Position numbers and translations under genes: made by a program. The notes below the pieces were generated by a model, which was given only the letters and a program-made list of their open reading frames with translations, was not told the origin of the DNA and searched no databases. This document shows positions 9,653 through 55,205 of a stretch of 64,000 bases of DNA, one piece after another. Positions within the stretch are counted from its first letter, which is position 1. Every line of letters begins with the position of its first letter. This DNA comes from Ilex aquifolium (Eukaryota > Streptophyta > Magnoliopsida > Aquifoliales > Aquifoliaceae), in NCBI GenBank assembly GCA_951799425.1, contig OX637405.1:18449089-18513088 (forward strand). Reading direction: 5' to 3'.

Positions 9653-9655
9653 TTT

Positions 9656-9674
9656 TGGCGCCGTTGCCGGGGAA
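9656..9674 (+). promoter_or_regulatory. Element A primer-binding site (tRNA-Asp type)
   Basis: TGGCGCCGTTGCCGGGGAA, three bases after the LTR end, complementary to the 3' acceptor end of plant tRNA-Asp. This is the minus-strand DNA primer site used by Athila-type elements; element C has the same site. Confidence 0.9.
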
Positions 9675-9866
9675 GGCAAGTGTCAAACCAAGGAGGTGAA
9701 TTCCGAACAATGAAGGTAAGTCCCGTGATCTTCATCACGGGCTGAGGTACGTTGTCTCGTGTACATATTCTTGTTTGTGTATAATTTCAATTGTAGATAT
9801 ATATCTTGTTGCATGTGGGGAATGGACGACTATCACTGATTAGTTAGACAACCCTTAGGCCCCAAC

Positions 9867-11381: not shown

Positions 11382-11386
11382 AAGAT

Positions 11387-17630: not shown

Positions 17631-17755
17631 GACAAAGCATAACAGTACCGGTACGATATGGTACCGGTAGTACCGGTACGCCAAACTTTCTGGAGTCGAA
17701 GTACCAGTACTGTATGGTACCGGTACTCAGTACCGGTACGATTTGTCTGACACGA
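17625..17755. repeat. LTR-like GTACCGGTAC module upstream of the accessory ORF
   Basis: Six GTACCGGTAC-type palindromes (one degenerate) with the spacer CGCCAAACTTTCTGGAGTCG, matching the module in the LTR of the same element, including flanks (CAGACAA before, CGATTTGYCTGAC after). It ends about 190 bp before the ATG of the accessory ORF. Confidence 0.9.
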
Positions 17756-17945
17756 AATTTTTTTTAGGGCTTTTAATTTAAACTCCTCGTTAAACCCTTC
17801 ATTTCCCCATTTCTATTCCTGCCCTATCCCTCTCTCCCTCACTCGAAAACACTCCAAGGTTCCAAAACCCTCCCCACTTCCCTCTCAATCCATAAAACCT
17901 CCTTTGATTTCGCTTGCTTTGGACAACCCTCATCGGATAAACTCA

Positions 17946-19130
17946 ATGGCTCGCACTAAGAGACCAGGACCAGGACCCAAGCCCAGTTCCCCTCTTGCCA
18001 GGGTCTCCTCTAGCCGGAAGAGAGGAGGCGAAGGGTCAAGTGAGGACCCAGAGGAGCAGAGGAAGAGGGCTAAGAGGGATGCCCGACGCCAGTTGATCGA
18101 TGGTAAGGGTGTGACCTGTGAACGTTTTTTGGATAAAATGTCCCTTTCCCCCATTCATCCCGTTGTGAAAATCATTGAGGGACATGGGATGCATTTCTGG
18201 TTCAAGGAAGTTGAGGGTTACAACCTGGCATTGGTAAGGGAGTTCTACCGTTCATTGAAATTAGTTGAGGTTGCTGTTGGGGAAGTTCTGAGAGTGAATG
18301 TTAGGAGAAAGGTATTTACAGTGACCCCTGACGTCATAGCCACCCTTCTTGGAAACTATCAGAGACCTCCATCTTCCCCACCTGTCTATCCATACAACAT
18401 GGGTAGAGCTAAGACTAAGGCGGAGTTTGTCGATTTGATGTATGAGGATCCGACTGAATTCAAGGGAGTGGTTCATAGTGGTGGGTTGAAGCATGTTTAT
18501 GGGCTTCTCAACAAACTGCTTCATTATAACCTACTCCCAAGGGCTGCAGAAAAGAAACCAAACATGGAAAAGCTGGCCATCCTGGATGCTGTTGTGTCGG
18601 GCAAAACAATTGATTTTGCCCTTGTTATTTGGGAAGTTATGAAAGACTTTGCCATCACAGAGAAGCCATTGACTAACCTGTCGTATGGGAGCTTGGTTAC
18701 TCGACTGTGTAACCATTTTAAGGTTAAGGGCTACGCATCAGAAAAGCTCACTCCCCCCGAGACTGGGGCCATAGGCAGGGCCAGTAGCCAAAAGAGGAAG
18801 GCTATGGGTCGTGGGGAGCGAGCTCAGCTTGATTCTGATGAGGACTTTGTACCGACTGCACCCACCATGCCATTCAAGCCTGTTTCAGCACGCTCAGTCC
18901 CTAGGAGACTTGATGCACTAGAAACGACAGTACATGGGATTGAGGCCTCGGTTCAGGGAATGATGGTGATGATGAAAGAGATGTACATGCACACATTCCC
19001 TGGGAGACCCATCCCAGAAGTTCCTACTGCACCTTCAACCTCCAGGGTTAATGAGGAAGCGGAAGATGATGAGGAGTCTGAGGAAGGGGAAGAATCAGAG
19101 GGTTATGATGAAGAAAGTGATGGAGAGTAA
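17946..19130 (+). CDS. Athila-type accessory (env-position) protein, intact
   Basis: A 394-residue ORF in the position where Athila elements carry their envelope-like gene. The start is the ATG giving MARTKRPGPG; the frame is open a little further upstream without another ATG. Residues 1-50 are basic and Pro/Ser-rich with a nuclear-signal-like RKRAKRDARR; residues about 70-260 form a globular region (HGMHFWFKEVEGYNLALVRE ... VFTVTPDVIATLLG ... LTNLSYGSLVTRLC) that resembles the plant-transposon-associated domain found in Athila ORFs (Pfam PF20167/PF03078 type); residues about 310-345 are coiled-coil-like, and the tail is very acidic (EEAEDDEESEEGEESE). I see no signal peptide or membrane span, so a true envelope role is doubtful. 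It is unbroken although gag-pol of the same element is not. Domain assignment is inference. Confidence 0.75.
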   Translation: MARTKRPGPGPKPSSPLARVSSSRKRGGEGSSEDPEEQRKRAKRDARRQLIDGKGVTCERFLDKMSLSPIHPVVKIIEGHGMHFWFKEVEGYNLALVREFYRSLKLVEVAVGEVLRVNVRRKVFTVTPDVIATLLGNYQRPPSSPPVYPYNMGRAKTKAEFVDLMYEDPTEFKGVVHSGGLKHVYGLLNKLLHYNLLPRAAEKKPNMEKLAILDAVVSGKTIDFALVIWEVMKDFAITEKPLTNLSYGSLVTRLCNHFKVKGYASEKLTPPETGAIGRASSQKRKAMGRGERAQLDSDEDFVPTAPTMPFKPVSARSVPRRLDALETTVHGIEASVQGMMVMMKEMYMHTFPGRPIPEVPTAPSTSRVNEEAEDDEESEEGEESEGYDEESDGE

Positions 19131-19395
19131 GGAGTGCTTGTGTTAGTATAGGATTTTGTGTAGTTTGGGATGGGAGATTAGGCTATTTTTTTCTTTTTAA
19201 TGACCTACTCCATTTTGTACTCCAACTTCGTTCACATCAATATAAACCCACAATTGTTCCATTTTACTCACTTTCATGTTGTTAATTGCATTTTGATTGA
19301 TTGAATGAATGGTCGTTGATTTGGATTGAATGTGTTGCTATTTTCGTTGTGTTGTGCTGGGGAGTGAATCTTTTGCTAAGGGACTAGCAAAACCT

Positions 19396-19408
19396 AAGTT
19401 GGGGGGTG
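19396..19408 (+). promoter_or_regulatory. Element A polypurine tract
   Basis: AAGTTGGGGGGTG directly before the 3' LTR; expected plus-strand primer. The preceding GGGACTAGCAA is shared with element C at the same place. Confidence 0.85.
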
Positions 19409-20818
19409 TGATTAGCACAAAACTTTGTATATTTTAAGGTGCTAATCAGCTCAGTTCACTTGTTTTTGAAGATTAAATGATATGAGTTATGATGATTGAA
19501 GTCTTAACGTCAATATTTTATGTTTGCAGTTGAAAGGAGCTAAATATGGTTTGTTAAGGCCTTCCCATACCACTTGGGATGAAAGGAGATGAAAAGAGAA
19601 CTTGGGGACAGCTCAGGAGCAAAGGAATCAGAAGATTCAGACAAGGAGGCAGAACAGTACCGGTACTCAGTACCGGTACTCAATACCGGTACGCCAAACC
19701 TTCTGGAGTCGAAGTACCGGTACGATTTGCCTGACAAGCCCAGAATCTGCAGATCTGCTCAGCTACTTCGAGGGTCCCACCATAGATGCCCCCACACTCC
19801 TCTGACACGCCCACAACACTGTTCATCAGGCCCACACTTTCCTCTGCACTCTAGAGCTACAGCTTTAAATTTTAGAGAGAGAGAAGAGGAGGAGCTGGGT
19901 GTGCAGACAAACTCTGCACTCCCCTGTCCAGGTCATCCAGACTGCACCCTACTGATGGGGGTCACTTCAGGGAGCTACAAGAGCAGACCAGGCACGTTTT
20001 TGGGAGGGAAAGCTCTCCAATGATGGGCATTCTGGGATAGCATAGAGAAAAAGATAGTGAGAGAAGCTCTGGGCGGAGAAGATGATGAATAGTAATTTTA
20101 GAGAGAGAAAGTTGTGATTTTTGTATTTCTGCTACTGCATTGTCTTGTAATCAATGGTATGAACCTTTAGATCTTCATTGAATGTCATTAATGCCATTTT
20201 TCCTTATGTCCATTGCTAGTTTAATGCTTCCATTTAAGTTCTACCATTAATGCTTCCAAGTTGTTCTTGTTCATAGATATAAAATGGATTTTCACTTCAT
20301 TCACTTCTAGTCCATGATTTCTTGCACTTAGTTACTTCAAAACTTTATATCTTTAAAATGCATTATCTTTCCATTGTCATATTCATTTCAAGTATGGGTA
20401 GCTAAATCCTTTTGTTGGCAAGACCAAGGGGAATCCTCCTTTTTGGGTATACCATTTCAACTCTTTCTACTCGTCCCTTTAGAGTCCAATGGTTCGGTTT
20501 GACCGGATTGAAGGTGGATGATTTGGTGAGTCTTTGATAATCCGTAGGCCTAGTCACGGTTTATGCTTAGATACTCACCTACCTTATCCTCGGCTTCCAA
20601 GTAAAAGATGACCCACGAAAGTCTCCTTGCGATTGGGGAGCATTTTTGTGCATTCACATATCACATTCCCATTAACTTTTTTTCCCTTTCCTATTGCCCT
20701 TTCTTTTCACACTATCCGAAGGGAGCTTGACCTCCCTTCCCATTTGAACATATATCACACATACACTTTGGGGGATAGTAATTAAGGGGTTAGGAATAGG
20801 ATTGTTTTTGCTCAATCA
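19409..20818 (+). repeat. Element A 3' LTR (shortened)
   Basis: 1410 bp, same ends as the 5' LTR. It lacks two blocks: about 55 bp within the palindrome array (four copies at 19656-19725 instead of eight) and about 240 bp corresponding to 9195-9430. Elsewhere it is almost identical to the 5' LTR, which suggests post-insertion deletions in a moderately young element. Confidence 0.9.
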
Positions 20819-24772: not shown

Positions 24773-27411
24773 CAACCATTGTTGGGAAGCTTGGGGAGAC
24801 TTGGTAGAGAGGTTGATGGAGGCTGAGACTCCCACCAATATTATTGTAGAGTAATCTTATATTTCCTTGTATGAAGTAGTTGTTCTAAGAGATTGGTTTG
24901 GCATTAGTCCAACATCTCTTAGCTTGCTGTAAAATTAGTTTTATGCTTATGCTTTCAATTATATGCATAGAGGGAGATATATCACCTTTGGTTGTGGATC
25001 ACCCTCCAAAAGTGACTACCTTCTTCTACTTTTAATTTGTGTTTCATTCACTTCCATTGCTTGAGCTTCTTTCTTCCCTTAGAGGAGTGAAACTCTTTCA
25101 CTTTTCTAGAGCTTCGTCAAAGCCGTGAAGGGTGGAATGTGATTCACTCATTCTTTGTCGAAGATCGGATCCTTGTTTATTTTGCTTTGCTTTGTGATCC
25201 CTCTACTTGGAGGAATGAGCATCACTCTCTTTTCTAGCTTTACCAAAGCCATGAAGAGTGAGTAGTTTCTCATTCACTCTTTAGTAAGAGGAGAAGGACA
25301 TGTATAAATTATCCGGACGTTATATTTGTGCAATTTCGATTATGCTTAATGCTTTATATTCCCCATGCTTATTGAATGATTGATTGCATCTAGCAAAGCT
25401 AAAGTACTTTGTATAACCAGGAGTTCTTTCTATAACATAGATAACTCTTGTATAGAAAGACTCATTGGTTCAAGGCAAGTACCCCAGCTAGATCTTCATG
25501 ACTACCCTTCAATCTTCACCATTATTGTGCTTCAATTAAAGAATGAAAATGGAACATTAATGTCATGATTGGATGTCTTGTAGAAACACTTGCTTGTTTG
25601 TAGACGGGTTATGTCTCGGCATAGATAATTCTTGTAAACTTCTAGAAAGACATCGGAATCATGTTCTTAATTCTCATAATCCACATTTATCTTCCGATTA
25701 ACCTGTTGTTGACACGGGGGTTAATTGAGTTATCATGCACAAGTATAACAAACCAGATAATTAACTACATGTCCATATCCTTGAACTAAAGAGTGACTCT
25801 TTTACATTAGAGTTTATCTCATATCTTGTTAAGAAAATTCTCTTGGAAAGAATCTTATATTCTGTCCAAGAAATCTCACACTTCACACCTCACACAACTT
25901 CAAATCTCAAGGGTTACAATCAATCATCCCAACTCCACCATTGCTTATCTCAAAACAACAAGAGTTCCCTGTGGATTCGACTCCGGACTCAAACCGAATT
26001 ATTACTACAGCTTGACCGCCTGCACTTGGGTGTACACATTTCGGATCAAGTCACAAAACACCGGATCTTGCACCCGAGGGATAATCTAGCCCTTCTTGCT
26101 AACCCCGACCCTTATTTTCAATGCAGCCCATGCGACTCAATCAAACCTTGGTCCAACTTTCTTGAGCCCACGTATCAGCCACCAAGAATGGTGTTTGATC
26201 AAAACCTTGCACACACCCATATTTAGGTCACATGCCCATGAATGCGATGTTTTCTGTGCATATGCAAATGTAATGTACAATTGAAATTTTCATAGCATGT
26301 TCAATATGTCATGAGCACATTATGAAAAATTTCAATGTCCATCAACATTTCCAAGTCCTCAATGTCAATATATCATAAGGCATATACCAAGATTTACCAA
26401 CATCAAATCCCAAGCATGTTATAACATATTCAATGCAATTAACACACTTAATCCACATACGTATTTTGTCCAACACCTTCAAGACATAAATGTAAACACA
26501 TAGCATGCCCAATTAGCAAATTCATCTAGAAATTACAATTTGTTATTTCACCAAAACCCAATTCATGCAAGAATTGATTTTAACCATTCTTATACCAATT
26601 TTCCACATTTCAACTACAATAGGTATGTGCCATACATGAGATTACATATCTAACACCCTACCCATTTAATATTTCAACCCTAGGTTGGAAATAAACCTAG
26701 TTAGGAAAGGAACCCTACATCTTGAAGCGTAATACACGTAGTAAAGGCTTCAAAATACCAAAATCAAGCTTTAAGCCTTGATTTCCAAAAACCCCGATTT
26801 TGAGATTTATGTGAAATCCACAATTTTTGGTATGTAGACGTAGCTCTCATCGCAGAGAACAACTCTTGTTCTTGGTCCAAAGCAATTTGAAGCACGGATC
26901 GTCTTAGATCACAAGAAGAAGCTTGAAGATTTTATGTTTTCTCTCCCTTCTCTCTCTCTCTCTCTCTATCTATTCGAAAAACCCAGCAACAAGAATGGGG
27001 GAAAAATTTGATATTCCCCTCTTTTTATACTCTCCAATGCTTGGCTCTCATTAAGTCACATGTCCCGACTTTTCTGATCCGATTTTGTCTCGAATTAATT
27101 AAATCTCGTCCCATGTTGTGTTCAATATATTTTATTTGAACTAACTTTAAATTATTTTCCATGTTTCACAATCAAATCCCAATTGCGTTCATTTTAATCT
27201 CGCGATGCTCGATTGCATCGTAAAACACAAAAAATCCGACTGTCCCAAAATTTGACTGGATAATTAGATTTCGGGAGATGAATCTAACGGTGAGGTCCGT
27301 TTCGTCATTCGAGTTCTAAAAAAATTAGCATTTTCAACCCGTACCGCAACAGTTAATTATCATTTTGCCCTTCACAATAAAATTTTAAATTTTCTCGGGT
27401 CTTATATTTAA

Positions 27412-28581: not shown

Positions 28582-28778
28582 TAAAAAAAATGGTCTCCAC
28601 ATTTTGGACAAAATTCTCCACAAAGGGTTTTAATCGCTGATCATTGACGGTAAAAATGTTACCGTTTGATGGGTTCTCCACTTCCACTGCCCCATGTTCA
28701 AATACCTTTTTAACAATGTATGGTCCAGTCCATCTTGATTTCAACTTACCAGGAAATAGGCGAAGTCTCGAATTGAAA
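28582..28778 (-). repeat. 197-bp perfect copy of the pol 3' end of element C
   Basis: Identical base for base to 45132-45328 (no mismatch or gap found), covering the integrase C-terminal codons ([20 protein letters not shown] to [12 protein letters not shown]) in the same orientation. Flanks on both sides are unrelated to element C. No target duplication or poly-A was recognised. Confidence 0.9.
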
Positions 28779-34365: not shown

Positions 34366-34947
34366 GGGCTAAATATCAGATATTTCAGCAGAAATATCTC
34401 TGATATTCAGCTGGCTTCACACGTTGGGGAGAAAGAGGGAGACAAGAGGGAAAATCAATCTTCTTTGGCCGATTCTTCGAAGTTCCGTCGCTCGGATCGA
34501 CTCGGACCAAGAGTTAAAGTCGATCACCGCGACGAGGGCTACGTCTACGTACCAAAAACAAGATATTTCACCGAAGATCCAAGAGAAGTCTTTGGAGGAA
34601 TCAAAGATCTTGGAGCTTTGGTTGGTGTTCTTGAGGTGTTCTTGAAGCTTTGAAGCTCTAGTCTTCATCTCACGCTTCAAAAGGTAGGGTTCTTCCTACT
34701 TTTGTTCATTTCCTACCTAGTATGTTCATAAGGGGTGGTTAAGTGTATGTGGATGTATATCACTTGTGTATTGTTAAGGAAAATGAAGAATTGAGTGTAG
34801 GAATAACTTAAGCTAAATTCTAGCTTGCAATTGATACATGAAAGTTACTTGTATATCTTCTTGTAAGTGAATGAAATAGTGGAGTGGTTTATAGTCTATT
34901 TCGGGACTGCTATGTATCCTAGTTTGGGGGGCTGTTTTGTGGTTATT

Positions 34948-35735
34948 GCGGACTGTTTTTGGACTGATTTTGGACTGAAAATGCGGACTGTTTTTAAGTT
35001 GATTTGGAACTGAAATTGCGGACTGATTTTGGACGGAAATTGCGGACTGTTTTTAAGTTGATTTTGGATTGAAATTGCGGACTGTTTTTAAGATGATTTT
35101 GGACTGAAATCGCGGACTGTTTTTAAGTTGATTTTGGACTGAAATCGCGGACTGTTTTTGGACTGAAATTGCGGACTGTTTTTAAGTTGATTTGGAACTG
35201 AAATTGCGGACTGTTTTTGGACTGAAATTGCGGACTGTTTTTAAGTTGTTTTGGACTGAAATTGCGGACTGTTTTTGGACTGAAATTGCGGACTGTTTTT
35301 AAGTTGTTTTGGACTGAAATCGCGGACTGTTTTTAAGTTGATTTTGGACTGAAATCGCGGACTGTTTTTGGACTGAAATCGCGGACTGTTTTTAAGTTGA
35401 TTTTGGACTGAAATCGCGGACTGTTTTTGGACTGAAATTGCGGATTGTTTTTAAGTTGATTTGGAACTGAAATTGCGGACTGTTTTTGGACTGAAATTGC
35501 GGACTGTTTTTAAGTTGTTTTGGACTGAAATTGCGGACTGTTTTTGGACTGAAATTGCGGACTGTTTTTAAGTTGTTTTGGACTGAAATCGTGGACTGTT
35601 TTTGGACTGATTTTGGGGCTGAAATTGCGGACTGTTTTTAAGTTGTTTTGGACTGAAATTGCGGACTGTTTTTGGACTGATTTGGAGCTGAAATTGCGGG
35701 CTATTTTGGGTGGAATTTATGGACTGTTTTGGGCT
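34948..35735 (+). repeat. GGACTGTTTTT minisatellite, LTR 2
   Basis: About 30 units built from two forms: a short one (GCGGACTGTTTTTGGACTGA plus AATT) and a long one in which TAAGTTGATTTTGGACTGA replaces the middle. The LTR 3 array (54815-55205) is about half as long and the LTR 1 piece (29577-29790) shorter still. Confidence 0.95.
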
Positions 35736-38272: not shown

Positions 38273-38589
38273 ATGGCAACTAGAGGAAGGGGACGTGGGG
38301 GTGGACGAACCAATAACCTACCACCACTGACCTTTGACCACCGGGCCTTTGTTGAGGCTATTGATGCTACGGCTGCTACTATTGCACAGGCTAGCGCAGC
38401 AGCTGTTGCCATTGTGCAAGCTAGTGCAAACCTGAGCCAAGAGGCTCAAGTTATCCAACAGAGTTTAAGTACCATGAGTCACCAACGCTCAGGGAAAAAG
38501 CAGATGACAACTTACCAGGCGGGCCAGAGGACATGTTTCTATTGTCGACAACCGGGCCATAAGAAGAAGGAGTGCCCCTTGAGGCAAAT
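38273..38589 (+). pseudogene. Complex D internal 2: gag N-terminal part, interrupted by element C
   Basis: Open from ATG (MATRGRGRGGGRTNNLPP) through an Ala-rich segment to the zinc knuckle CFYCRQPGHKKKEC, then cut by element C at 38590. It lacks the stops seen in the first copy, but after the junction the frame meets TGA, so even before the insertion the product was short (about 110 residues). A TGTGTGTAG acceptor-like sequence precedes the ATG. Confidence 0.75.
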
Positions 38590-40301
38590 TGACTTGATCC
38601 GAAATGTGTACACCCAAGTGCAGGCGGTCAAGTTGTAGTAATAATCTGGTTTGAGTCCAGAGTCGAATCCTCAGGGAACTATGGTTGGTGTTCTTTGAAG
38701 TAAATAGTGAGAAAGACTTGTAACTGGAAATATTATGATTTTGAAGTTGTGGGAAGTTTTGGATAGAATGTAAAATTCTTTCCAATGGGTATTTTTCTAG
38801 ACAAAATATAAGATGATTAAATGTAACAAACACTCTTTGGTTCGGGAATCAGAATATGTAGTTGATTATCCGGTGCATTATGTTTATGCTTTATAACTCA
38901 ATTAACTCCCGTGTCAACGGCAAATTAATCGGAAGATAGGAATGAAGTGCAATAATGGTGGACATTGAAAGTTTGTCATGAAGAGTTAGTTAGGGTACTT
39001 GCCTTGAATCAATGGATCTTTCCATGTAGGAGTCATCCATTTATCATAGAAAGATCCGTTGATTATACAAAGTACCTTTACTTTGCTAGGTGCATTCAAT
39101 CACCCAAAAATCAAGTGGAGTATAGAACATTTAAGCATAAAGGTGATACACAAACATAATGTCCAGATTAATCTTTTACATATCTATCATCCCTTCCCAA
39201 AGAGTGAATGAGGACTACTCACCCTTCATAGCTATGGTAAAGCTAGAATGATGAATGGTACTCATCCCCAAAAGGTGTTACAAAGTAAAATGCTCAAGCA
39301 CTAGAAGTAAAATGCTTTAAAGTAAATTAGCTAAACAAGGAGCCGATCTTCGACAAAGAATGAGTGAATCACGTTCCACCCTTCACGGCTTTGGTAAAGC
39401 TCTAGAAAAGTGGAAGAGTTTCACTCCTCTAAGGGGAAGAAGGAAGCTCCAACAATGGAAGTAAAAGAAAACAATACTTAAATTAAAAGAAAGCAATAAA
39501 TACTTGGTGTTTAATTCACAACCAAGAGATAAAAATACATAAAAGAAAACAATAACTACTTGGTGTTTAATTCACAACCAAGAAATAAAAATACATAAAA
39601 GAAAACAATAACTACTTGGTGTTTAATTCACAACCAAGATATAATAAAAAGAAAATAATAAAAGCTATAAAGAAATGACAATTAGAAGAGGAGGCTCAGC
39701 CTTCCATTATATTTATACAAGCAAGTAAATATAAAAGCTATAAAGAAATGACAATTAGAAGAAAGAACTCTTACCATAAGAACATAAGCATAAAATCTTC
39801 AATACATGAATTGAAATGGAAGCTACAAAAGATGAAAGAAAATTTGCTCTCTAAAAACTCTTCTAAAATCTCTCCTAACTCTTAGTTCCTCTCTTGGTTT
39901 TTCCACCAATTCCACCCTCAGATCCCCCCTTGAAATGCAGAAGGAGCAGCCTATTTATAGGCGTAGGAAGGCTGGGCAAGTGGGCAAGTGGGCAAGTGGG
40001 CAAGTGGAGAATGAACGGTGGTGTTGCTGAATGCTGATTTTTCAAATGCTTTTATTACACTTTGTCCTGCTTTTATTACACTTTGTCCTTCTTTTATTAC
40101 ACTTTGTCCTTCATTCTTTGCATTCTCCTGACATTGCTCCCTTGGTCTTGCGTTAATTCGGCATTTGTCCCTCAGATGTACTTCTTGGATGCCTTTGGAC
40201 TTTCCTTCACTTTAGAACCTAAAATATCATCATTTAAACTCCATCAAAGTATAATTAGTCCAAAAAGAGTGTAACAATATGCTACTTTTGAGTGCTAATC
40301 A
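38590..40301 (-). repeat. Element C 3' LTR
   Basis: 1712 bp; sense strand starts TGATTAGCACTC and ends GATCAAGTCA. Contains three copies of a 57-bp repeat with CTTGGTGTTTAATTCACAAC (39477-39660), four GGGCAAGT units (39974-40007) beside TATAAATA (39952-39959, minus strand) and three copies of CTTTTATTACACTTTGTCC (40048-40110). Confidence 0.95.
39952..39959 (-). promoter_or_regulatory. TATA box of element C 3' LTR
   Basis: TATAAATA on the minus strand directly after the GGGCAAGT array; the 5' LTR has the same box at 52130-52137. Confidence 0.6.
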
Positions 40302-40313
40302 CACCCCCCAACC
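40302..40313 (-). promoter_or_regulatory. Element C polypurine tract
   Basis: GGTTGGGGGGTG on the minus strand, directly before the 3' LTR; same as in element A. Confidence 0.85.
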
Positions 40314-41734
40314 TAAACATTGCTAGTCCCTAGTAATAAATAACAACATCACTTTCGTAGATAACACGATTGCATTTAGCATATGCAATAAGCCGTTAAA
40401 CCCCTAGGTGATTCCTAGTGGACGAGTTTTGTCTCGTGAAGGTTTTCAGTGAAGCTACCTACAAACTCCATTTGAAAAAATGTGTATATGCATTAGCACC
40501 ATAATAGTTGAGACGCCAAAAAAATATTTTTTTTTTTTTTTTAAGAAAAATAAAACACTTCTCTGTCATTGGTACGTAATATATGCAAAAATAAACACTT
40601 GTTATATTGGTATTTGAAATTCCCTATGTAGTAAGAATGATCATTCTAGCAACAAGAATTGTTATATAACAAACACTCCACTTTACTACCTTCCATGGAT
40701 AGCTTCGATTTCACAAACCTCTCGTAGAATGCTCTCAGCAAAAATTCACTCCGATTATAGTGACTTGTCTCTCACGGGGCATGTGATCAGAAGGTGGCCA
40801 ATCGAAAAATCACATGCACAATTAGGAAGGGAGTGAAGTTTAAGGAAACAAACTAATCATGTTTGACATAATCTCATGAAGGAATATTGATGCAATTTAA
40901 AGAAATACTATTTACCATACCCCAATTTTGATTAACAACACACACATGTAACAGACTTGAGATCAATTAGGGCTTTTCATAGGTTGTAGCGTGGCCAGAG
41001 GTCAGTGGCTAATGAAATGACGTCAGAGGTTTTCAAAAGCTATCTTTTCATTCTGTAATGTAGCACACTTCTTTCTAGCTTTTCGACATTTTGCCCAGAA
41101 ATGATTTCTTTTTTTTTTTTTTTTTGATTCTCCTTATCATCGAAAAGTAATCTCCACAGTTTTCCCATTTCTTTGCATTTCTGTGTCATATTGATTAATA
41201 AGAGTGTGCAAGAAAATTAGATAGCAATGGTGTGTCCAGTATGTTTTCTTGTGGCTTGGTAAATATTTGGGTTTATCAAAGAAGAAATCATACATTGAGG
41301 GCTCAAACATGGCTGACTAGGGAAATAATTTTGCAGAAAAAATGGCTAAGACTCAATATCAAATCAAAGATGGCCTAAAATCCTTTCTCAAGTATGTGAA
41401 CATGTATGTGTCGTATGAACAGATTTCTTGGGGATATGTCAACAGATTACCTTAGTTGCGTCAATCAAAGCAAATTTAATGAGATTATTCAAAAATAGAG
41501 AATGAAAGACCTTACTTGAATAAATGTTAATTATCTCTCAAAAGTATGGTAAGGCTCAAAACTTACCATGATATTCTTTATCATCTCTACTGGTAATGTC
41601 AGGTTTTTCATGGAATGTCGGTTATATACCGATTCTATTTTTGAGTCTGGTCATTCTGTACCTTAAGAATAACAAATAGCAATATACATTTGACATTTAA
41701 GCATAGAGAAAATACCATTTTTCAAAGAAGTGAG

Positions 41735-43673: not shown

Positions 43674-43710
43674 CTCACCCCCTAACTTGGTTCATGCATT
43701 GTCCTCAATG
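43674..43710 (-). promoter_or_regulatory. Internal polypurine-like signal 2 of element C
   Basis: Sense strand: CATTGAGGACAATG, then CCAAGTTAGGGGGTGAG. Same layout as the internal tract of element A and as signal 1 at 44605-44641. It lies between the two cassettes. Confidence 0.6.
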
Positions 43711-43980: not shown

Positions 43981-44412
43981 TCAATCCGATTCCCCCTCCG
44001 TATCTGTGTAAAATGGACAACCAGTAACTCTCCCAACTTCCTCTCTCACAAATCGGTTAAGCACAGTACCGGAATAGCATGGCGTATCAGGGTAATCCTT
44101 ACTCAGCCCATGTTTTATCCAGTTTAATCGATCGGTTGCGCGACCGGAAATTGGTTCAGAACATTTGTTGTATCTTTTCTCATGAAAGTATCTGCCACAC
44201 TGTTTACAGGCACCAAGTCGTGTAGCACGACGACGTTTAGAATAACTGCTTCGGCCACAGAGGGGTTTCGCTTGTTTTTCTTTGATTTCAGCCTTCCTTA
44301 CTAATATTGCTTTTCTCATGATCATGGTATGTACATCAGATGGAAAAGTACGTAGGACTCCTAGACTAAACCAAAAAAGATTTACATCCATGATTGCTAC
44401 TCTATGACCCAT
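43981..44412 (-). CDS. Cys-rich basic protein, cassette copy 1 (viral NABP-like)
   Basis: 143 residues, ATG start, second Met at residue 8. It aligns without gaps to copy 2 over residues 1-130, about 90 identities by hand count. Shared: LFWFSLGVLR, FPSDVH, IMRKA, PLCGRS, the basic run (KRRRATRLGAC here), Cys69-x2-Cys72-x11-Cys84, SEPISGRATDRLNWI, GLSKDYPDTP, VR[EQ]EVGRVT. Many nucleotide differences between copies fall at third codon positions (for example CGACCGGAAATT against CGACCCGAAATT), a sign of selection on the protein. By pattern it resembles carlavirus-type nucleic-acid-binding silencing suppressors; role in the element may be RNA binding or counter-defence. Not searched. Confidence 0.75.
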   Translation of the reverse strand: MGHRVAIMDVNLFWFSLGVLRTFPSDVHTMIMRKAILVRKAEIKEKQAKPLCGRSSYSKRRRATRLGACKQCGRYFHEKRYNKCSEPISGRATDRLNWIKHGLSKDYPDTPCYSGTVLNRFVREEVGRVTGCPFYTDTEGESD

Positions 44413-44604: not shown

Positions 44605-44641
44605 CTCACCCCCCAACCTAGACTGAACATTGTCCCCAATG
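44605..44641 (-). promoter_or_regulatory. Internal polypurine-like signal 1 of element C
   Basis: Sense strand: CATTGGGGACAATG, then TAGGTTGGGGGGTGAG, just upstream of the first Cys-rich ORF. A 21-bp tandem repeat (GCAGATCAACTACTGTAAACT, two copies at about 44557-44598) follows downstream in the sense direction. Confidence 0.6.
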
Positions 44642-44924: not shown

Positions 44925-45036
44925 GGAGAAGAAGAAGAAAAGAGAAGAAAAAGAAGAAGAAAAAGAAAAGAAAAGAGTAAAGGCGGTGGGGAAAAGAAAA
45001 AGGAAAAAAAAAAAAACGATGGGAGCCTTATAAAGG
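44925..45036 (-). promoter_or_regulatory. TATA-like motif and pyrimidine-rich leader of cassette 1
   Basis: GCCTTTATAAGGC at 45024-45036 on the sense strand overlaps the end of pol, followed by a TTCTTCTTTTTC-type leader to 44925. Upstream, GTGTCGGCA-type text (45071-45085 plus strand) recurs near 43540 before cassette 2, showing that the promoter-like part belongs to the duplicated unit. Confidence 0.4.
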
Positions 45037-48000
45037 CAGTCCATCGTGTCGGGTGTCTGATTGACCCGACCCTTTTTTGTGTCGGCAAGCGTAATCTCCG
45101 GAGTGATTTCCGGAGATACTTTCTGGATCCATAAAAAAAATGGTCTCCACATTTTGGACAAAATTCTCCACAAAGGGTTTTAATCGCTGATCATTGACGG
45201 TAAAAATGTTACCGTTTGATGGGTTCTCCACTTCCACTGCCCCATGTTCAAATACCTTTTTAACAATGTATGGTCCAGTCCATCTTGATTTCAACTTACC
45301 AGGAAATAGGCGAAGTCTCGAATTGAAAAGTAGAACCTTTTGATCAGGTTCAAAAGATTTTCGCACTATGTTCTTGTCATGAAAAATTTTCATCCTGGTT
45401 TTTGCAATCTTAGCATTTTCATATGCTTCATTTCTCAATTCCTCCAATTCATTAATCTGAAGCTTCCGTGACAGTCCAGCCTTGTCTAAGTCAAAATTCA
45501 TTGCTTTAATAGCCCAGTATGCCCTATGTTCCAATTCCACAGGCAAGTGACATGGCTTTCCATAGACTAATCGATAGGGAGACATGCCCAAAATTGTTTT
45601 AAAAGCAGTTCGGTATGCCCAGAGTGCATCAGTTAGTCTTAATGACCAATCTTTGCGATCTGGGTTCACCGTTTTTTCCAAAATTAATTTGATCTCCCGA
45701 TTAGCTAACTCAGCTTGTCCACTGGTCTGTGGATGATAAGGGGTTGCAATTTTGTGAAAAATCAAGTATTTTTTCATTAAATTCCAGAATGGACGATTGC
45801 AAAAATGAGAACCCCCATCACTTATAATGGATTTTGGAATTCCAAACCGAGATAAAATATTTTCTTTTAAAAACTTGATCACTGTTTGATGATCATTATT
45901 TCGGCATGGAATTGCTTCAACCCATTTGGATACATAGTCTACGGCTACTAAAATGTATAGATAGCCAAAGGAGGGGGGAAATGGTCCCATAAAATCGATA
46001 CCCCAACAGTCAAAAATTTCGATTACCAAAATTGGGTTTAAGGGCATCATGTTTCTTTTTGAAATGTTTCCCAACCTTTGACATCTATCGCAAGTTACGC
46101 AAAAAGCATGGACATCTTTGAAAAGTGTGGGCCAGTAAAATCCACACTGCAAGATTTTTGCAGCGGTTTTTCGAGATGAAAAATGACCACCACATGCTTC
46201 TGAATGACAAAATGTTATTACCTGTCTACTTTCCTGAGCGGGGATGCAACGTCTTATGATCTGATCCTTACAGTACTTGAATACGTAGGGATCTTCCCAA
46301 AAGAAATTGCGGACCTCCCTCAGAAACTTCTTTTTGTCCATGGGAGTGAAAAATGGAGGAAGTGTTCCGGTAGCAAGGAAATTAGCAATATCAGCATACC
46401 ATGGGGTCTCATCAATCCTGAATAGTTGTTCATCGGGGAATTTTTCATTGATTGGCAGTCCATCCTCATGAAATTCATAAGTTAATCTCGACAGATGATC
46501 TGCCACCACATTTTCCACACCCTTTTTGTCCTTAATGACTAAATCAAATTCTTGGAGCAAGAGGATCCATCTCAAGAGCCTTGGTTTGGCATCTTTTTTT
46601 GTAAGCAAAAATTTCAGTGCTGCATGGTCAGTAAATACAGTAACAGAAGAACCAACAAGATAAGATCGAAATTTTTCCAATGCAAATACTATAGCAAGTA
46701 ATTCCTTTTCAGTTGTTGAGTAATTCATTTGGGCATCATTTAAAGTTTTACTTGCATAGTAAATCACATGTGGCTTCTTATCTTTTCTTTGTCCCAAAAC
46801 AGCACCTACAACATAGTCACTAGCATCACACATCAATTCAAAGGGTAGAGTCCAGTCAGGAGGTTGCATTATTGGGGCAGAAATTAACATGCCTTTGAGT
46901 TTGTCAAAGGATTTTTGGCACGCTTCATTCCAGTCAAAAATGACATCCTGACTCAAAAGATGACACATAGGTTTTGCTATGGTGCTGAAGTCTTTTATGA
47001 ACCTTCTGTAGAATCCTGCATGACCTAAGAATGATCGAACATCCTTCACAACCCTAGGAGCAGGAAGATTCCTTATCAAATCAATTTTTGCTTTATCAAC
47101 TTTCATGCCTTCAGACGACACAATGTGACCCAAGACAATGCCTTGATTCACCATGAAATGACATTTCTCCCAGTTAAGCACCAGATTTGCCTCTTTGCAT
47201 CTCATCAAAACTTTTTCTAGGTTAACTAGACACAAATCAAATGAGTCACCATATACCGAGAAATCATCCATGAAGATTTCCAAAAATTTTTCGACCATGT
47301 CACTGAACAAGCTCAGCATACATCTTTGAAATGTTGCAGGAGCGTTACAAAGTCCGAATGGCATCCTTTTGAATGCAAAAGTGCCAAATGGACATGTGAA
47401 TGTGGTCTTTTCTTGGTCATTCAGAGCTATCTCAATTTGATTGTATCCGGAATACCCATCCAGGAAACAGTAAAATTCATGGCCTGCTATTCTCTCGAGG
47501 ACTTGGTCAAGGAAGGGAAGAGGAAAATGGTCTTTTCTAGTCACCAGATTGAGTTTTCGATAGTCAATGCACATTCGCCATCCTGTGACGACTCGTGTTG
47601 GCACGAGTTCATTTGCATCATTTTTGACTACTGTGACTCCAGATTTCTTTGGTACAACTTGGGTTGGACTAACCCATTTGCTATCGGAGATAGGAAAAAT
47701 TATCCCTGCATCCAGGAGTTTGAGCACTTCCAGTCTCACAACCTCTTTCATGTGAGGATTCAATCGTCGCTGCATTTGACGAGAGGGTTTTGAGTCCTCT
47801 TCAAGGTATATGGCATGATTACAAATTAACGGGCTTATACCTTTCAAATCAGCGATGGTCCACCCAATGGTGCTTTTATGACTTTTAAGAACTTCAATTA
47901 ATTGAGCTTCTTGCAAGTCTGTGATTTTTGAAGAAATTACCACTGGGTAAGATTTATCCTCACCTAAAAATGCATACTTGAGATCAGATGGGAGCGGTTT

Positions 48001-50640
48001 CAGTTCAGGCTTTGGTGGCCTGTCACTTGAAGATAGTGGTTTTGTACCACTTGATGAAATTTCTTCAAATTTAGGAGCCCATGTCCCCACATTGAAGGTA
48101 GGACACTCAATGGAGTTTTGTTCCAGAGAGTCAGATGAGTCAGATTTTGACAAAGTTGATTCACTAAGATCCTCACAGAATGAGTCATTCAGATGTGCTT
48201 GTATTAATGACTCAATGGAATTTATTTCTCCTACCTCCTCGTACTCTCTTGGGTGTTTTGCAATGTCAAAGACGTTCATTTCGAGAGTCATATCCCCAAA
48301 AGTCAATTTCATAATACCATTCCTGCAATTGATTAGTGCATTGGAGGTTGCTAGAAAAGGTCGACCAAGAATGACAGGAATTGGAGTTTCTGAATGAACT
48401 TCTGGATGAGTATCTAGAACAATGAAGTCTACAGGGAAGACAAAATTATCCACTTGGACAAGTACATCTTCAACAATACCCCTAGGAATTTTTACAGATC
48501 TATCTGCCAATTGGAGTGTGGTGCAAGTGGGTTTCAGTTCACCTAAACCCAACTGCTGGTAGACAGAGAAAGGAAGCAAGTTGACACTAGCTCCAAGGTC
48601 TAACAATGCTTGCTCAATTTTGAAATTTCCAATGACACATGACACAGTGGGGCACCCTGGATCTTCGCACTTTGAAGGAATTTTTTGTTGAAGTAGGGCA
48701 CTGGCTTGTTCTGTGAAGAAGGCTCTTTTTTGAACATTTTGGCTTCTTTTGACTGTGCACAAGTCTTTTAGAAACTTGGCATAAGCTGGAACCTGTTGAA
48801 TTGCATCCAGAAGTGGGATGTTGATTTTTACTTGCTTGAAAAGCTCGTAAATTTCAGACTGATTGTTTGCTTTCTGTATGCTCTTGAGTCTATGAGGGAA
48901 AGGAGCAGGAATAGAACACGAGGGTTCTTCTTCCCTTGATGGCTCTGGTTCTTGTTCAATCATGGGATCACAGTCATTTTTTTTTTCAAGTTCTGGCTCA
49001 CTTAATGGGTTGGCTGGAATTGAGACTGGTTTTGGGTCTGGAATCAGCATGTTTCTGATGGACTTGTCAATCTTTTTGCCACTTCTCAATGTGGTGACAG
49101 TTTTGGCTTGATCTTGTGGAGTTTCCATAGTTGATGGATTTCCCACCTGAAATTGGCCTTGTGGAGGCTTTGGTTGGGCAGGAAATTTTCCCTTCTCATG
49201 TGTGCTCATGGACTGGGTCAGCTTTTGAATGTGGCCTTTGAGATCCTCAAAAGATTGTGTGGTCTGGGCCTTGAAATCAATAAAAGCCTGAGTAGAACTA
49301 TTGTTATAGCTCATTTGGGTTTGCATGAATTGATTCAATGTATCTTCAAGGTTCCTTTTGTGTGGTGGTTGATATGGAGGATATTGTGGAGGTACTTGAG
49401 ATGGATGTGGTGGCCCTTGTTGCTGAGGATATTGTGGAGGTCCTTGAGGTGGTTGTTGTGGACTTTGTTGCTGATTCATGGGGGTTGGTTGTGTGTTTCT
49501 CCAACTGAAATTTGGATGGTTCCGCCACCCTGGATTGTATGTTTCAGAGTATGGGTTGGAGTAAGGCTTGTTGAAATTGGAAATGGCATTTGTTTGTTCC
49601 AACAAAACTTCTTTGAATGCCGGTATGGTCGGGCATTCCCCAGTAGGATGCCCTGTTAGCGCACAAATCCCACACACTTGTTCTGTGGGAGGGACAACAT
49701 CAACTTGATGGACCTTTTTCATCTCTAAAGCTTCAAGCTTTCGAGACAAAGTGGACATTTTTGCTCTAAGATCATCATCTTCTCTCAAGACATACTTACC
49801 CCCTTGGAAAGTAGGTGGTTTGGCTTCTACAGTGGTAGGAGATGCTGAGTCCCACATTTGAGAACTGTCAGATATGGTATCAAAAAAATTGAATGCCTCC
49901 TCCGGACTTTTTCCCATGAACTCTCCTTGAGCCATCATTTCGACAAACTGTCGTAACCTAGTGGGCAAGGAATCATAGAAAAAACCTGCCAAAGTCCAAT
50001 TTTCAAAAGCATGGTGTGGACAAGATTGGAGAAGATCTTTGAATCTCTCCCAGCTTTGATAAAAAGTTTCCCCTTCTTTGACCGAAAAATTCATGATTTG
50101 TCTTTTGAGTGTATTAGTGCGGTGCAGAGGAAAGAATTTTCTGAAAAATTCATTCTGTAGAGCCTGCCAATTAGGGATTGAAAGAGATTTTAAAGAATGT
50201 AACCATTGTTTGGCTTTATCCCTCAAAGAGAAAGAAAACAATTTCATTTTTGTCAATTCAGAATTGTCTTGAAATGTTCCACACACTTCTTCGAAGTCTT
50301 TGATATGCAGATACGGATTTTCTGCATCCAATCCATGAAACACGGGCAATAAATGCACTGTCCCCGGCTTTACAGTAAAGAGGGGAGCATTTTCAGGAAA
50401 AATAAAACAAGAGGGGACACTATTCCTTGTGGGATGTAAGTAATCTCGCAATGTTCGAATGTTGGGTACTTCCCCCTCTCTCACATGATCTTCACCCTGC
50501 CTATCAATATTTGCCATATTGAAGTTACAAGAATCGGCTTCTGATTTGGGTGAAGGTGGTTCAAGTTGATTTACAGACCCAGAAGATTCAGCAGGCAAAT
50601 TTTGAAAGAGACGTTTGGTGTCAGTCATAAAAAAAAACAA
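45028..50640 (-). CDS. gag-pol: Gag-Pol polyprotein of element C, intact, 1870 residues
   Basis: One uninterrupted frame. Residues 1-70 N-terminal; about 95-265 retrotransposon gag/capsid domain ([33 protein letters not shown]); zinc knuckle C323-x2-C326-x4-H331-x4-C336; Pro/Gln-rich linker 385-427; protease active site at 679-690 ([15 protein letters not shown] as usual in this lineage); RT about 960-1180 with [11 protein letters not shown] and catalytic FMDD 1123-1126; RNase H about 1265-1385 (Asp1272, Glu1312, Asp1338, Asp1381); integrase zinc site H1479, H1486, C1517, C1520; catalytic Asp1549, Asp1608, Glu1644 (x35 spacing); Athila-type C-terminal block [20 protein letters not shown] at about 1693-1712. 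The last 35 residues extend into the cassette promoter region. Two Mets (1 and 5) compete as start. All catalytic residues are present, so the element may be active. Confidence 0.95.
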
Positions 50641-50740: not shown

Positions 50741-50761
50741 GGTTCCCCGGCAACGGCGCCA
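50741..50761 (-). promoter_or_regulatory. Element C primer-binding site (tRNA-Asp type)
   Basis: TGGCGCCGTTGCCGGGGAAC on the minus strand, six bases inside the 5' LTR; same as in element A. Confidence 0.9.
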
Positions 50762-50767
50762 AAAACT

Positions 50768-52495
50768 TGACTTGATCCGAAATGTGTACACCCAAGTGCA
50801 GGCGGTCAAGTTGTAGTAATAATCTGGTTTGAGTCCAGAGTCGAATCCTCAGGGAACTATGGTTGGTGTTCTTTGAAGTAAATAGTGAGAAAGACTTGTA
50901 ACTGGAAATATTATGATTTTGAAGTTGTGGGAAGTTTTGGATAGAATGTAAAATTCTTTCCAATGGGTATTTTTCTAGACAAAATATAAGATGATTAAAT
51001 GTAACAAACACTCTTTGGTTCGGGAATCAGAATATGTAGTTGATTATCCGGTGCATTATGTTTATGCTTTATAACTCAATTAACTCCCGTGTCAACGGCA
51101 AATTAATCGGAAGATAGGAATGAAGTGCAATAATGGTGGACATTGAAAGTTTGTCATGAAGAGTTAGTTAGGGTACTTGCCTTGAATCAATGGATCTTTC
51201 CATGTAGGAGTCATCCATTTATCATAGAAAGATCCGTTGATTATACAAAGTACCTTTACTTTGCTAGGTGCATTCAATCACCCAAAAATCAAGTGGAGTA
51301 TAGAACATTTAAGCATAAAGGTGATACACAAACATAATGTCCAGATTAATCTTTTACATATCTATCATCCCTTCCCAAAGAGTGAATGAGGACTACTCAC
51401 CCTTCATAGCTATGGTAAAGCTAGAATGATGAATGGTACTCATCCCCAAAAGGTGTTACAAAGTAAAATGCTCAAGCACTAGAAGTAAAATGCTTTAAAG
51501 TAAATTAGCTAAACAAGGAGCCGATCTTCGACAAAGAATGAGTGAATCACGTTCCACCCTTCACGGCTTTGGTAAAGCTCTAGAAAAGTGGAAGAGTTTC
51601 ACTCCTCTAAGGGGAAGAAGGAAGCTCCAACAATGGAAGTAAAAGAAAACAATACTTAAATTAAAAGAAAGCAATAAATACTTGGTGTTTAATTCACAAC
51701 CAAGAGATAAAAATACATAAAAGAAAACAATAACTACTTGGTGTTTAATTCACAACCAAGAAATAAAAATACATAAAAGAAAACAATAACTACTTGGTGT
51801 TTAATTCACAACCAAGATATAATAAAAAGAAAATAATAAAAGCTATAAAGAAATGACAATTAGAAGAGGAGGCTCAGCCTTCCATTATATTTATACAAGC
51901 AAGTAAATATAAAAGCTATAAAGAAATGACAATTAGAAGAAAGAACTCTTACCATAAGAACATAAGCATAAAATCTTCAATACATGAATTGAAATGGAAG
52001 CTACAAAAGATGAAAGAAAATTTGCTCTCTAAAAACTCTTCTAAAATCTCTCCTAACTCTTAGTTCCTCTCTTGGTTTTTCCACCAATTCCACCCTCAGA
52101 TCCCCCCTTGAAATGCAGAAGGAGCAGCCTATTTATAGGCGTAGGAAGGCTGGGCAAGTGGGCAAGTGGGCAAGTGGGCAAGTGGGCAAGTGGGCAAGTG
52201 GAGAATGAACGGTGGTGTTGCTGAATGCTGATTTTTCAAATGCTTTTATTACACTTTGTCCTGCTTTTATTACACTTTGTCCTTCTTTTATTACACTTTG
52301 TCCTTCATTCTTTGCATTCTCCTGACATTGCTCCCTTGGTCTTGCGTTAATTCGGCATTTGTCCCTCAGATGTACTTCTTGGATGCCTTTGGACTTTCCT
52401 TCACTTTAGAACCTAAAATATCATCATTTAAACTCCATCAAAGTATAATTAGTCCAAAAAGAGTGTAACAATATGCTACTTTTGAGTGCTAATCA
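50768..52495 (-). repeat. Element C 5' LTR
   Basis: 1728 bp; same as the 3' LTR except six rather than four GGGCAAGT units at 52152-52201. TATAAATA on the minus strand at 52130-52137. Confidence 0.95.
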
Positions 52496-52500
52496 CAAAT

Positions 52501-53842
52501 CTCACGAAAATTCTGAGATGTTTCAATCTCAGTCATCTGTGGGACTCACCCAAGCACACTTTGTTACTCCCTGTCCCATTATGAATCAAGGAGATCTGTT
52601 CCAGCTACAGGGTGTTATCCAAGCCCCTACTCCTTCACGTACGGAGACTCCACAATCAGGCTGGATGAGTCAGGATGTGGGCCAAGGTAAATCCTCCCAA
52701 GGCGGGAGAAAACGGAAGCCTTCCTACCAGGCAGGCCAAAGAACTTGTTACCATTGCCACCAACCGGGTCACATGAGGCGAGAATGTCCTCAGAGGCAAG
52801 GATCCCATAGCTATGGGGTATCTCCGTCCCAGTCATCGGTGGGACAGCCACAGACCTACCTTGTTCCTCCCTACCCCACTGTGGACCAGGGAAGCCAGTA
52901 CCGGTTTCATGGTACATTTCTTATTTTCTGTTTATGGGTACACATGTCACTTGATTTGAATGTGCACATGTCACGTACCGTTATCTTCATGTTCTTGTGC
53001 ATGAGGTGGTTTTATATATCGCAATCCTGGAAGGGTTCTTATGAGGAAATTCAACCCTAGGGGTTAGGATATGTTTTGATTGGAGATGTTGGGAATATGA
53101 GTTAGGGATCTCATGGATTCTACTCACCATGGATCTTAGGGTCATGGACATGTAGGAGTTGATGTCATCCTTGGGATGAACTGGTTGACGACACACCGAG
53201 TTGTCATTGAGTGTGATCGGGAGAGGGTCACAACTTACACACCGGAAGGTGTTTGTTCCAGGTTTCAGGGGGAAAAGCATAACGCTTTACCTCAAGTAGT
53301 TATGACTCTAGATGACACGGGTAGTTGATGGGTTGGCTAGCAAGTCTTACCCTAGAGGGTGAGGAGAGACAGAAGTTAGGTCTACTTCAGGTTGTGTGTG
53401 AGTACGAGGATGTTTTCCGGACACGTTATCGAGATTACCTCCACCTAGGGATGTAGACTTCGCCATAGTTACATCCGGATACTTCGCTTATTTCTATGAT
53501 TTTGCATAGAATGGCACCTGCTGAGTTACAAGAACTCTAGGTCCCATAGCAAGAATTGTTGAACAAAGGGTTCCTTAGACCGAATGCTTCACCTTGGGAC
53601 GCTTCGATATAAATTGCCAAATTATATAGGAGCCAGCTCCTATTCTGATTATTCCGGATAGGGGACATAGGTACACAGTATATTGTGATGCCTCTAGGGA
53701 TAGAATTACTTGTGTTCTTATTCGGAGATAAAGGTACAAGTTTCTAACCACAGCTTGGTATCACAACTCATTTCATATGCATGTGTTGAATGTACACGTG
53801 TATGTGAATTTCGGGGACGAAATTCTTTTAAGGGGGGAAGAA
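52501..53842 (+). pseudogene. Complex D internal 2, right part: second zinc knuckle and pol scraps
   Basis: Continues internal 2 after element C. A 195-codon open stretch (52473-53060) includes the second knuckle CYHCHQPGHMRREC (about 52748-52789) and the SQSSVG spacer in two copies. Then the same protease (VDVILGMNWLTTHRVV), RT and RNase H scraps as in internal 1, at equal spacing, ending in a CGGGGACGAAATTC block and polypurine tract. Differences from internal 1 are scattered single bases. Confidence 0.8.
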
Positions 53843-54814
53843 TGTAAAACCCGGGAAATTTGAACTTTTTCCAGAAAGGGAAAAATAGTAATTTGCCACT
53901 ATAATGCGTATTTAAAATACTCATGTTCTAGAGCTCGGAGGGGGAAACGGAGTTCGCCATTATATTCGCAATGCGGAACTAGTTACCCTGTCAAATTTCG
54001 CCGAATTCCGAGATAGTTGGGTTTTTCACGTTTTTCGAGGCGACGGGTGTCCAGTGACCCCTAAAAACGGATTTTTTTTATTAAAATTATAAATTTTCCT
54101 TAAAATTTGATGAAATTTCAAATAAAATTAATTTGAACTTAAACCGGGATGAAATAAATCGTTTCGGGGCGAAAACGGACCCGAACAAGTGGGGGGCGTG
54201 TGGCGCGACTCGAGCCAAGCCTTGGAAATTATAAATAGGGCTAAATATCAGATATTTCAGCAGAAATATCTCTGATATTCAGCTGGCTTCACACGTTGGA
54301 GAGAAAGAGGGAGACAAGAGAGAAAATCAATCTTCTTTCGCCGATTCTTCGAAGTTTCGTCGCTCGGATCGACTTGGACCAAGAGTTAAAGTCAATCACC
54401 GCGACGAGGGCTATATCTACGTACCAAAAACAAGATATTTCACCGAAAATCCAAGAGAAGTCTTTGGAGGAATCAAAGATCTTGGAGCTTTGGTTGGTGT
54501 TCTTGAGGTGTTCTTGAAGCTTTGAAGCTCTAGTCTTCATCTCACGCTTCAAAAGGTAGGATTCTTCCTACTTTTGTTCATTTCCTACCTAGTATGTTCA
54601 TAAGGGGTGGTTATGTGTATGTGGATGTATATCACTTGTGTATTGTTAAGGAAAATGAAGAATTGAGTGTAGGAATAACTTAAGCTAAATTCTAGCTTGC
54701 AATTGATACATGAAAGTTATTTGTATATCTTCTTGTAAGTGAATGAAATAGTGGACTGATTTATAGTCTATTTCGGGACTGCTATGTAGCCTAGTTTGGG
54801 GGGCTGTTTTGTGG

Positions 54815-55205
54815 TTATTGCGGACTGTTTTTGGACTGATTTTGGACTGAAATTGCGGACTGTTTTTAAGTTGATTTGGAACTGAAATTGCGGACTGTTT
54901 TTAAGTTGATTTTGGACTGAAATTGCGGACTGTTTTTAAGTTGATTTTGGACTGAAATCGCGGACCGTTTTTGGACTGAAATTGCGGACTGTTTTTAAGT
55001 TGTTTTGGACTGAAATTGCGGACTGTTTTTGGACTGATTTTGGACTGAAATTGCGGACTGTTTTTAAGTTGATTTTGGACTGAAATCGTGGACTTTTTTT
55101 GGACTGATTTTGGGGCTGAAATTGCGGACTGTTTTTAAGTTGTTTTGGACTGAAATTACGGACTGTTTTTGGACTGATTTGGAATTTATGGACTGTTTTG
55201 GGCTT
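54815..55205 (+). repeat. GGACTGTTTTT minisatellite, LTR 3
   Basis: About 14 units of the same two forms as in LTR 2; cut short at 55206 by the inserted solo LTR near the array end. Confidence 0.95.

Follow-up and report, generated by a model that had tools for sequence, protein, structure and literature searches.

In plants, retrotransposons and RNA viruses are silenced through overlapping RNA-silencing pathways, and some mobile elements encode anti-silencing proteins, namely the VANC proteins of VANDAL DNA transposons. Among plant RNA viruses, the nucleic-acid-binding proteins (NABPs), also called cysteine-rich proteins (CRPs), include that of Potato virus H, which suppresses local silencing (PMC3689765), and that of Citrus yellow vein clearing virus, which suppresses local silencing by single-stranded green fluorescent protein (PMC12172455). 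Plant retrotransposons have many extra open reading frames (ORFs), whose origin and role reviews call unknown (PMC7264820). The stretch analysed here, referred to as the window, comprises 64,000 nucleotides of the holly Ilex aquifolium (contig OX637405.1, positions 18,449,089 to 18,513,088) and contains a long terminal repeat (LTR) retrotransposon with two NABP genes in tandem between pol and the 3' LTR, in sense orientation relative to gag-pol. The interpretation towards which the evidence leans, on balance, is that of a recent Athila element with two homologues of flexivirus NABPs that would, by analogy with the viral proteins, weaken host RNA silencing.

The original prediction described a 143-residue ORF, without its strand, 3' of an intact Athila-type pol and referred to two copies. 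The ORF was recovered with exactly those boundaries on the minus strand, where it reads in the same direction as gag-pol (Table 1), and the basic run, Cys69-x2-Cys72-x11-Cys84, ISGRATDRLNWI and GLSKDYPDTP were all present in it. The pol upstream proved to be part of an uninterrupted gag-pol ORF, and the second copy was located and is 66 % identical to the first. A residue missed in that description, His77, was invariant across a 12-sequence alignment of window-type proteins (two from the window and ten database rows), and the resulting C-x2-C-x4-H-x6-C pattern is likely to be a metal site. In both copies a basic motif lies directly ahead of this Cys-rich zinc-finger-like motif. Since eight of the ten database rows begin at the position of Met8, translation of copy 1 may, and likely does, start there (44391) instead of at 44412; the likely start of copy 2 is 42564.

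Homology of the retrotransposon protein to viral NABPs is close to certain. As had been anticipated, both copies exceeded the curated Pfam cut-off of 23 bits for PF05515 (Viral_NABP; E-values of 8.2e-11 for copy 1 and 1.5e-12 for copy 2), and both also exceeded that of 20.9 bits for PF01623 (Carla_C4; 3.3e-6 and 3.3e-5), while no unrelated Pfam domain reached its cut-off. None of ten shuffled sequences (five per copy) matched either viral family, and one shuffle matched an unrelated model below cut-off. A chance or low-complexity match was ruled out by the Pfam scores together with these shuffles. Some true viral NABPs scored below the window copies on PF05515, with 17.9 and 13.9 bits for Peach mosaic virus and 30.4 bits for Grapevine virus H. 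A profile built from the 12 window-type proteins retrieved 21 of 5.8 billion proteins at E up to 1, and these included viral rows from Peach mosaic virus (3.5e-7 and 3.7e-7) and Grapevine virus H (6.2e-7).

The similarity extends over nearly the whole protein. An hhalign run that set six viral NABPs against the alignment of window-type proteins gave a probability of 98.8 % (E 1e-16) over 119 aligned columns with 34 % identity, from few effective sequences (1.4 and 2.0), and matched columns 8–130 to 10–133 of a 135-amino acid (aa) viral row. Within a set of 126 proteins, BLASTP aligned the Cherry mottle leaf virus protein with a window-type protein (P0008) at 35 % identity over 125 aa (E 1e-14). 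A KxRR motif followed by C-x1-3-C-x4-[C/H]-x3-6-C was found in 117 of these 126 proteins, the two from the window and the viral rows among them; as the set was picked by similarity search, this count is a description and no independent test. The interpretation originally proposed was supported, both viral families being matched above their cut-offs, with the limit that the nearest named viral relatives among the matches listed were trichoviruses and pruneviruses, with a vitivirus, ahead of carlaviruses.

The predicted fold points the same way. A model of the window protein, derived from a 64-row alignment, was of moderate quality (pLDDT 71.1, pTM 0.41). Foldseek against BFVD gave 46 matches at E up to 10, five of them at E up to 0.001. 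Among the best 34 of the 46, 27 were named as nucleic-acid-binding, RNA-binding or silencing suppressor proteins and four were nameless; the other three were a Cherry mottle leaf virus '15kDa protein', a betaflexivirus 'HP' and Citrus tristeza virus p23. Viral NABPs thus ranked first in this fold search, though with low TM-scores; the search is partly dependent on sequence, as viral rows were in the model alignment and Foldseek scores include sequence.

Relatives were found in other plants and in viruses. When window, plant and viral rows together served as the query of a third search, 371 proteins were retrieved at E up to 1; the names and cluster sizes that follow come from the best 120 of them. 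Among these matches, six were named viral proteins (two each from Peach mosaic virus and Cherry mottle leaf virus, and one each from Mexico trichovirus and Grapevine virus H) and seven were named plant proteins (Orobanche hederae, three from O. gracilis, Populus alba, P. x canadensis and Xanthoceras sorbifolium), and many relatives were about 182 aa long. Clusters at 90 % identity contained 566 sequences for P0099, 74 for the Populus alba protein and 47 for that of Xanthoceras. Clusters of this size are as expected of a repeat, though repeated sequencing can also enlarge them.

The NABP gene recurs beyond a single element. Two scans of IMG/VR for DNA relatives confirmed none; of two scans of bacterial and archaeal genome contigs, the first found none and the second a single contig of 3330 bases (L001). 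This carries an integrase-region ORF (194-1594; rve, Integrase_H2C2) that is 72.7 % identical to the window pol over 462 aa, then a NABP-type ORF of 186 aa (1787-2347; PF05515 34.1 bits, Carla_C4 20.4 bits and so just under the cut-off of 20.9), then an internal polypurine-like block at 2577. The contig (1-3330) is filed as Candidatus Nomurabacteria. Because its content is that of a plant retrotransposon, it is likely to be a misbinned plant contig that contaminates the Candidatus Nomurabacteria bin. The window itself holds a second Athila-type element, in which a polypurine-like block at 15783 follows the pol stop (15577) by 206 bases with no NABP between them, and which contains a 408-aa ORF (17904-19130) matching PF20167 (Transposase_32, 80.3 bits). 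Blocks of the same kind stand in the NABP-bearing window element both after copy 1 (43709) and ahead of it (44640). A tblastn search of the window with 125 NABP-type proteins (E up to 1e-3) matched only the two known copies. The interval from pol to this block therefore holds a NABP gene in two elements, those of the window and of L001, and none in a third, the neighbour in the window.

Phylogenetic trees of 51 and 30 rows separated the viruses, the window type and the 182-aa type into three sets, with a support of 100/99 for the 182-aa type against the rest. A single clade of viral rows was not rejected (p-AU 0.231 and 0.099). No direction of transfer is claimed, because both trees are unrooted and long branches were flagged. 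Old residence in the retrotransposon fits the equivalent place of the gene in the window and L001 and its many plant members. A wider reading, put forward tentatively and considered rather doubtful, is that a long-lived Athila lineage across eudicots encodes a silencing suppressor and that one gene family is shared with flexiviruses, perhaps having passed from the retrotransposon to the viruses.

The carrier of the two genes is a structurally complete retrotransposon that inserted very recently, since its LTRs are near-identical and the target-site duplications, primer-binding site and polypurine-like tract are in place. The LTR pair had no mismatch in 1712 aligned bases; the sole difference was 16 bases of length inside an 8-base tandem repeat, and BLASTN over a slightly wider span gave 99.0 %. 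All marks of an intact LTR element were present, with TG...CA ends and a 5-bp target duplication. The order of domains in gag-pol (gag, protease, reverse transcriptase, RNase H, integrase) is that of Ty3/gypsy elements, and no chromodomain was listed in gag-pol at E up to 0.01. The overall likeness, the type of primer-binding site and a long 3' region that contains extra ORFs suggest the Athila lineage as the probable assignment.

Table 1. Positions of the retrotransposon, its genes and the neighbouring element in the window
Feature	Position	Strand	Remarks
NABP copy 1, 143 aa	43981..44412	-	KxRR basic run, C69-x2-C72-x4-H77-x6-C84; PF05515 42.7 bits, PF01623 27.4 bits
NABP copy 2, 141 aa	42160..42585	-	PF05515 48.4 bits, PF01623 24.2 bits
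gag-pol ORF	45028..50640	-	Uninterrupted; 1870 aa; Retrotrans_gag, Asp_protease_2, RVT_1, RT_RNaseH, Integrase_H2C2, rve
5' LTR	50768..52495	-	
3' LTR	38590..40301	-	
Target-site duplication, left	38585..38589	.	CAAAT
Target-site duplication, right	52496..52500	.	CAAAT
Primer-binding site TGGCGCCGTTGCCGGGGA	50744..50761	-	Presumably tRNA-Asp type
Polypurine-like tract adjoining 3' LTR	40302..40317	-	
Internal polypurine-like block 1 (ATTGGGGACAATG...AGGTTGGGGGGTG)	44607..44641	-	Between small ORF 1 and NABP copy 1
Internal polypurine-like block 2 (ATTGAGGACAATG...AAGTTAGGGGGTG)	43676..43710	-	After NABP copy 1
Small ORF 1, 48 aa	44733..44879	-	Putative; a single strongly hydrophobic segment; precedes NABP copy 1
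Small ORF 2, 43 aa	43129..43260	-	Putative; a single strongly hydrophobic segment; precedes NABP copy 2
Second Athila-type element	7950-20818	+	pol broken; without NABP

Each NABP gene is preceded by a small ORF, and the two small ORFs may represent a duplicated partner gene with putative coding function. Their local alignment score was 59, compared with a mean of 25.4 (SD 4.9) for shuffles, none of 2000 of which reached 59, a test that overstates the strength of the match because the pair was chosen by eye among 51 ORFs. A case for separate NABP mRNAs from splice acceptors was rejected, as candidate sites near the NABP genes were no better than those inside gag-pol. Several other repeats were noted around the element. 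It is nested in an older sequence whose gag-like ORFs, on the plus strand, have CCHC knuckles (38273-38638 and 52473-53060). Part of the 3' end of pol, 197 bases long (45132-45328), is found again with 100 % identity at 28582-28778; the similarity stops abruptly on both sides, and this is an isolated pol fragment that was copied very recently. A related element is represented by LTR fragments, about 75 % identical and in inverse orientation, at 24988-26053, and related tandem arrays of short units (34945-35730 and 54794-55185) flank the region.

The two NABP copies are under purifying selection. From Met8 onwards the NG86 method gave a non-synonymous rate (dN) of 0.228 and a synonymous rate (dS) of 0.733, and so a dN/dS of about 0.31; 48 of the 103 differences fell on third codon positions, and identity was 74.8 % in the coding part (303/405), 64.2 % before it (95/148) and 58.5 % after it (38/65). 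The duplication predates this insertion, because the copies fall in different subclades, each grouped with other database proteins. Two database relatives, P0005 (of the copy-1 type) and P0014 (73 aa), each have a longest source contig of 2941 bases, which would be consistent with another tandem pair. The passive capture of an RNA-virus fragment, carried without function, has a parallel in the flexivirus replicase-like sequence integrated near retrotransposon-like sequence in cucumber (PMC3136472), but it is very improbable for a gene that is intact in two copies at this dN/dS, that occupies the equivalent place in a second Athila-type contig (L001) and that belongs to a plant family with many members; nor did Pfam scans of the long ORFs show another viral gene. 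Convergence of an unrelated protein on an Arg run and a zinc ribbon, for example from ribosomal eL43/L37Ae, is scarcely credible. A phmmer search of PDB chains did match archaeal-type eL43/L37Ae over residues 31-83 (E 0.0018-0.0082) and one source labels P0005 'ribosomal protein L37AE/L43A', but ribosomal Pfam families were absent at E up to 10, against 8e-11 and 1.5e-12 for PF05515, and the match with trichovirus NABPs is collinear and near full-length. A ribosomal eL43 origin was therefore rejected, the weak phmmer matches being unsupported by Pfam.

With homology in place, the question becomes one of function. Under the preferred reading, the Arg run and the C-x2-C-x4-H-x6-C finger would bind RNA or DNA, and the protein would aid the element by weakening host RNA silencing, as several of its viral relatives do, either by binding small RNAs or their precursors or by interference in the nucleus. 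The two diverged copies could divide this work or raise dosage, and expression might be from a spliced or internally started mRNA. A viral-NABP homologue might alternatively serve the life cycle of the element itself, either as an additional nucleocapsid protein or as an RNA chaperone, in packaging, dimerisation or reverse transcription. This is rather unlikely, although the protein is strongly basic and the spacing of its finger resembles the retroviral zinc knuckle: the near-whole-protein similarity is to viral NABPs and not to gag knuckles, zinc-finger families were below cut-off in Pfam, and the absence of the gene from the neighbouring Athila-type element indicates that it is not essential for such elements generally. 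The association of gamma-b, a CRP of another plant virus (barley stripe mosaic virus), with the virion (PMC11213338) would be in keeping with such a role. Somewhat less probable again is a nuclear regulator, a Tat- or Rev-like transcription or RNA-export factor that raises expression of the element or alters host genes. The KRRR basic run, the nuclear localisation signals of mandarivirus CRPs and a virus-encoded zinc-finger protein acting in the nucleus (both in PMC12172455, the latter as cited there) and known nuclear proteins from retrotransposon extra ORFs (PMC7264820) are all consistent with it, but nuclear action is compatible with silencing suppression as well.

Several observations weigh against silencing suppression by a flexivirus-type NABP. 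The finger spacing given for the carlavirus Potato virus H, C-X2-C-X9-C-X4-C (PMC3689765), is not literally present in the window copies, which have C-x2-C-x4-H-x6-C, while five trichovirus rows have C-x2-C-x4-C-x5-C; because of this difference in spacing the window protein is, judged by its sequence, a relative of the NABP family and no carlavirus CRP. Viral NABPs are also implicated in pathogenicity, cell death and nuclear localisation (PMC3689765, PMC12172455), so that homology does not fix function. TM-scores to viral models were low (best query-normalised score 0.47) and the window model was only moderate, a PDB fold search with it gave no match, and the viral NABP model was poor (pLDDT 42.7), with a similar helix order alone that was not used as evidence. 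A 2022 survey of 121 angiosperm genomes found 15 extra domains, and its main text contains no 'NABP', 'carla' or 'nucleic acid binding' (PMC9289625), which counts somewhat against a wide spread, or else the gene was missed.

The original prediction knew of no described plant LTR element with such a gene, and a search of one open-access library, with subscription papers largely outside it, likewise found no description of a retrotransposon NABP. None is mentioned in parts 1-2 of 3 of a 2020 review of extra ORFs (PMC7264820), and a 2019 survey counted no extra ORF below 250 codons, a length that the NABP ORFs do not reach (PMC6317226). If the preferred reading, silencing suppression, is correct, a homologue of viral suppressors in a recently mobile retrotransposon would link the conflicts of transposons and of viruses with the host directly. 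It would also offer a concrete hypothesis for the escape of Athila from silencing and a testable function for one plant retrotransposon extra ORF, and would help to show where the NABP gene of flexiviruses, so far of unexplained origin, may have come from.

The locus can be compared with four described systems. VANC of the VANDAL elements, mentioned in PMC11728184, resembles the window NABP in that a transposon encodes it and is defended by it against silencing, a role that is conjectural here, but VANDAL is a DNA transposon, its protein is unrelated and its function is demonstrated. In orchids, Ty3/gypsy elements that encode an AlkB RNA demethylase domain (PMC9289625) likewise carry a domain that also occurs in flexiviruses and may act on RNA; the domain is a different one and was reported from two Phalaenopsis species only, while NABP relatives occur in at least three plant genera. 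Athila elements with extra ORFs (PMC7264820, PMC6317226) share the Athila-type pol, the long 3' region and the sense orientation of the extra ORFs, but the products named for them include env-like, Athila ORF-1, transposase-28 and plant mobile domain proteins, and here the extra ORF encodes a viral NABP homologue. The closest likeness to the protein itself is the flexivirus NABP/CRP (PF05515, PF01623), which shares with it a KxRR run immediately ahead of a Cys/His site of four ligands and collinear helices in the N- and C-terminal parts, and whose curated cut-offs are exceeded. The nearest named flexivirus proteins among the matches listed are those of Cherry mottle leaf virus, Peach mosaic virus, Mexico trichovirus, pruneviruses and Grapevine virus H, and trichovirus rows are 30-35 % identical to the window proteins. 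The viral gene occupies the 3' end of a positive-strand RNA genome, whereas the window has two copies in tandem within an LTR retrotransposon that is integrated in DNA. By this analogy, a gene of counter-defence type appears to be common to retrotransposons and viruses.
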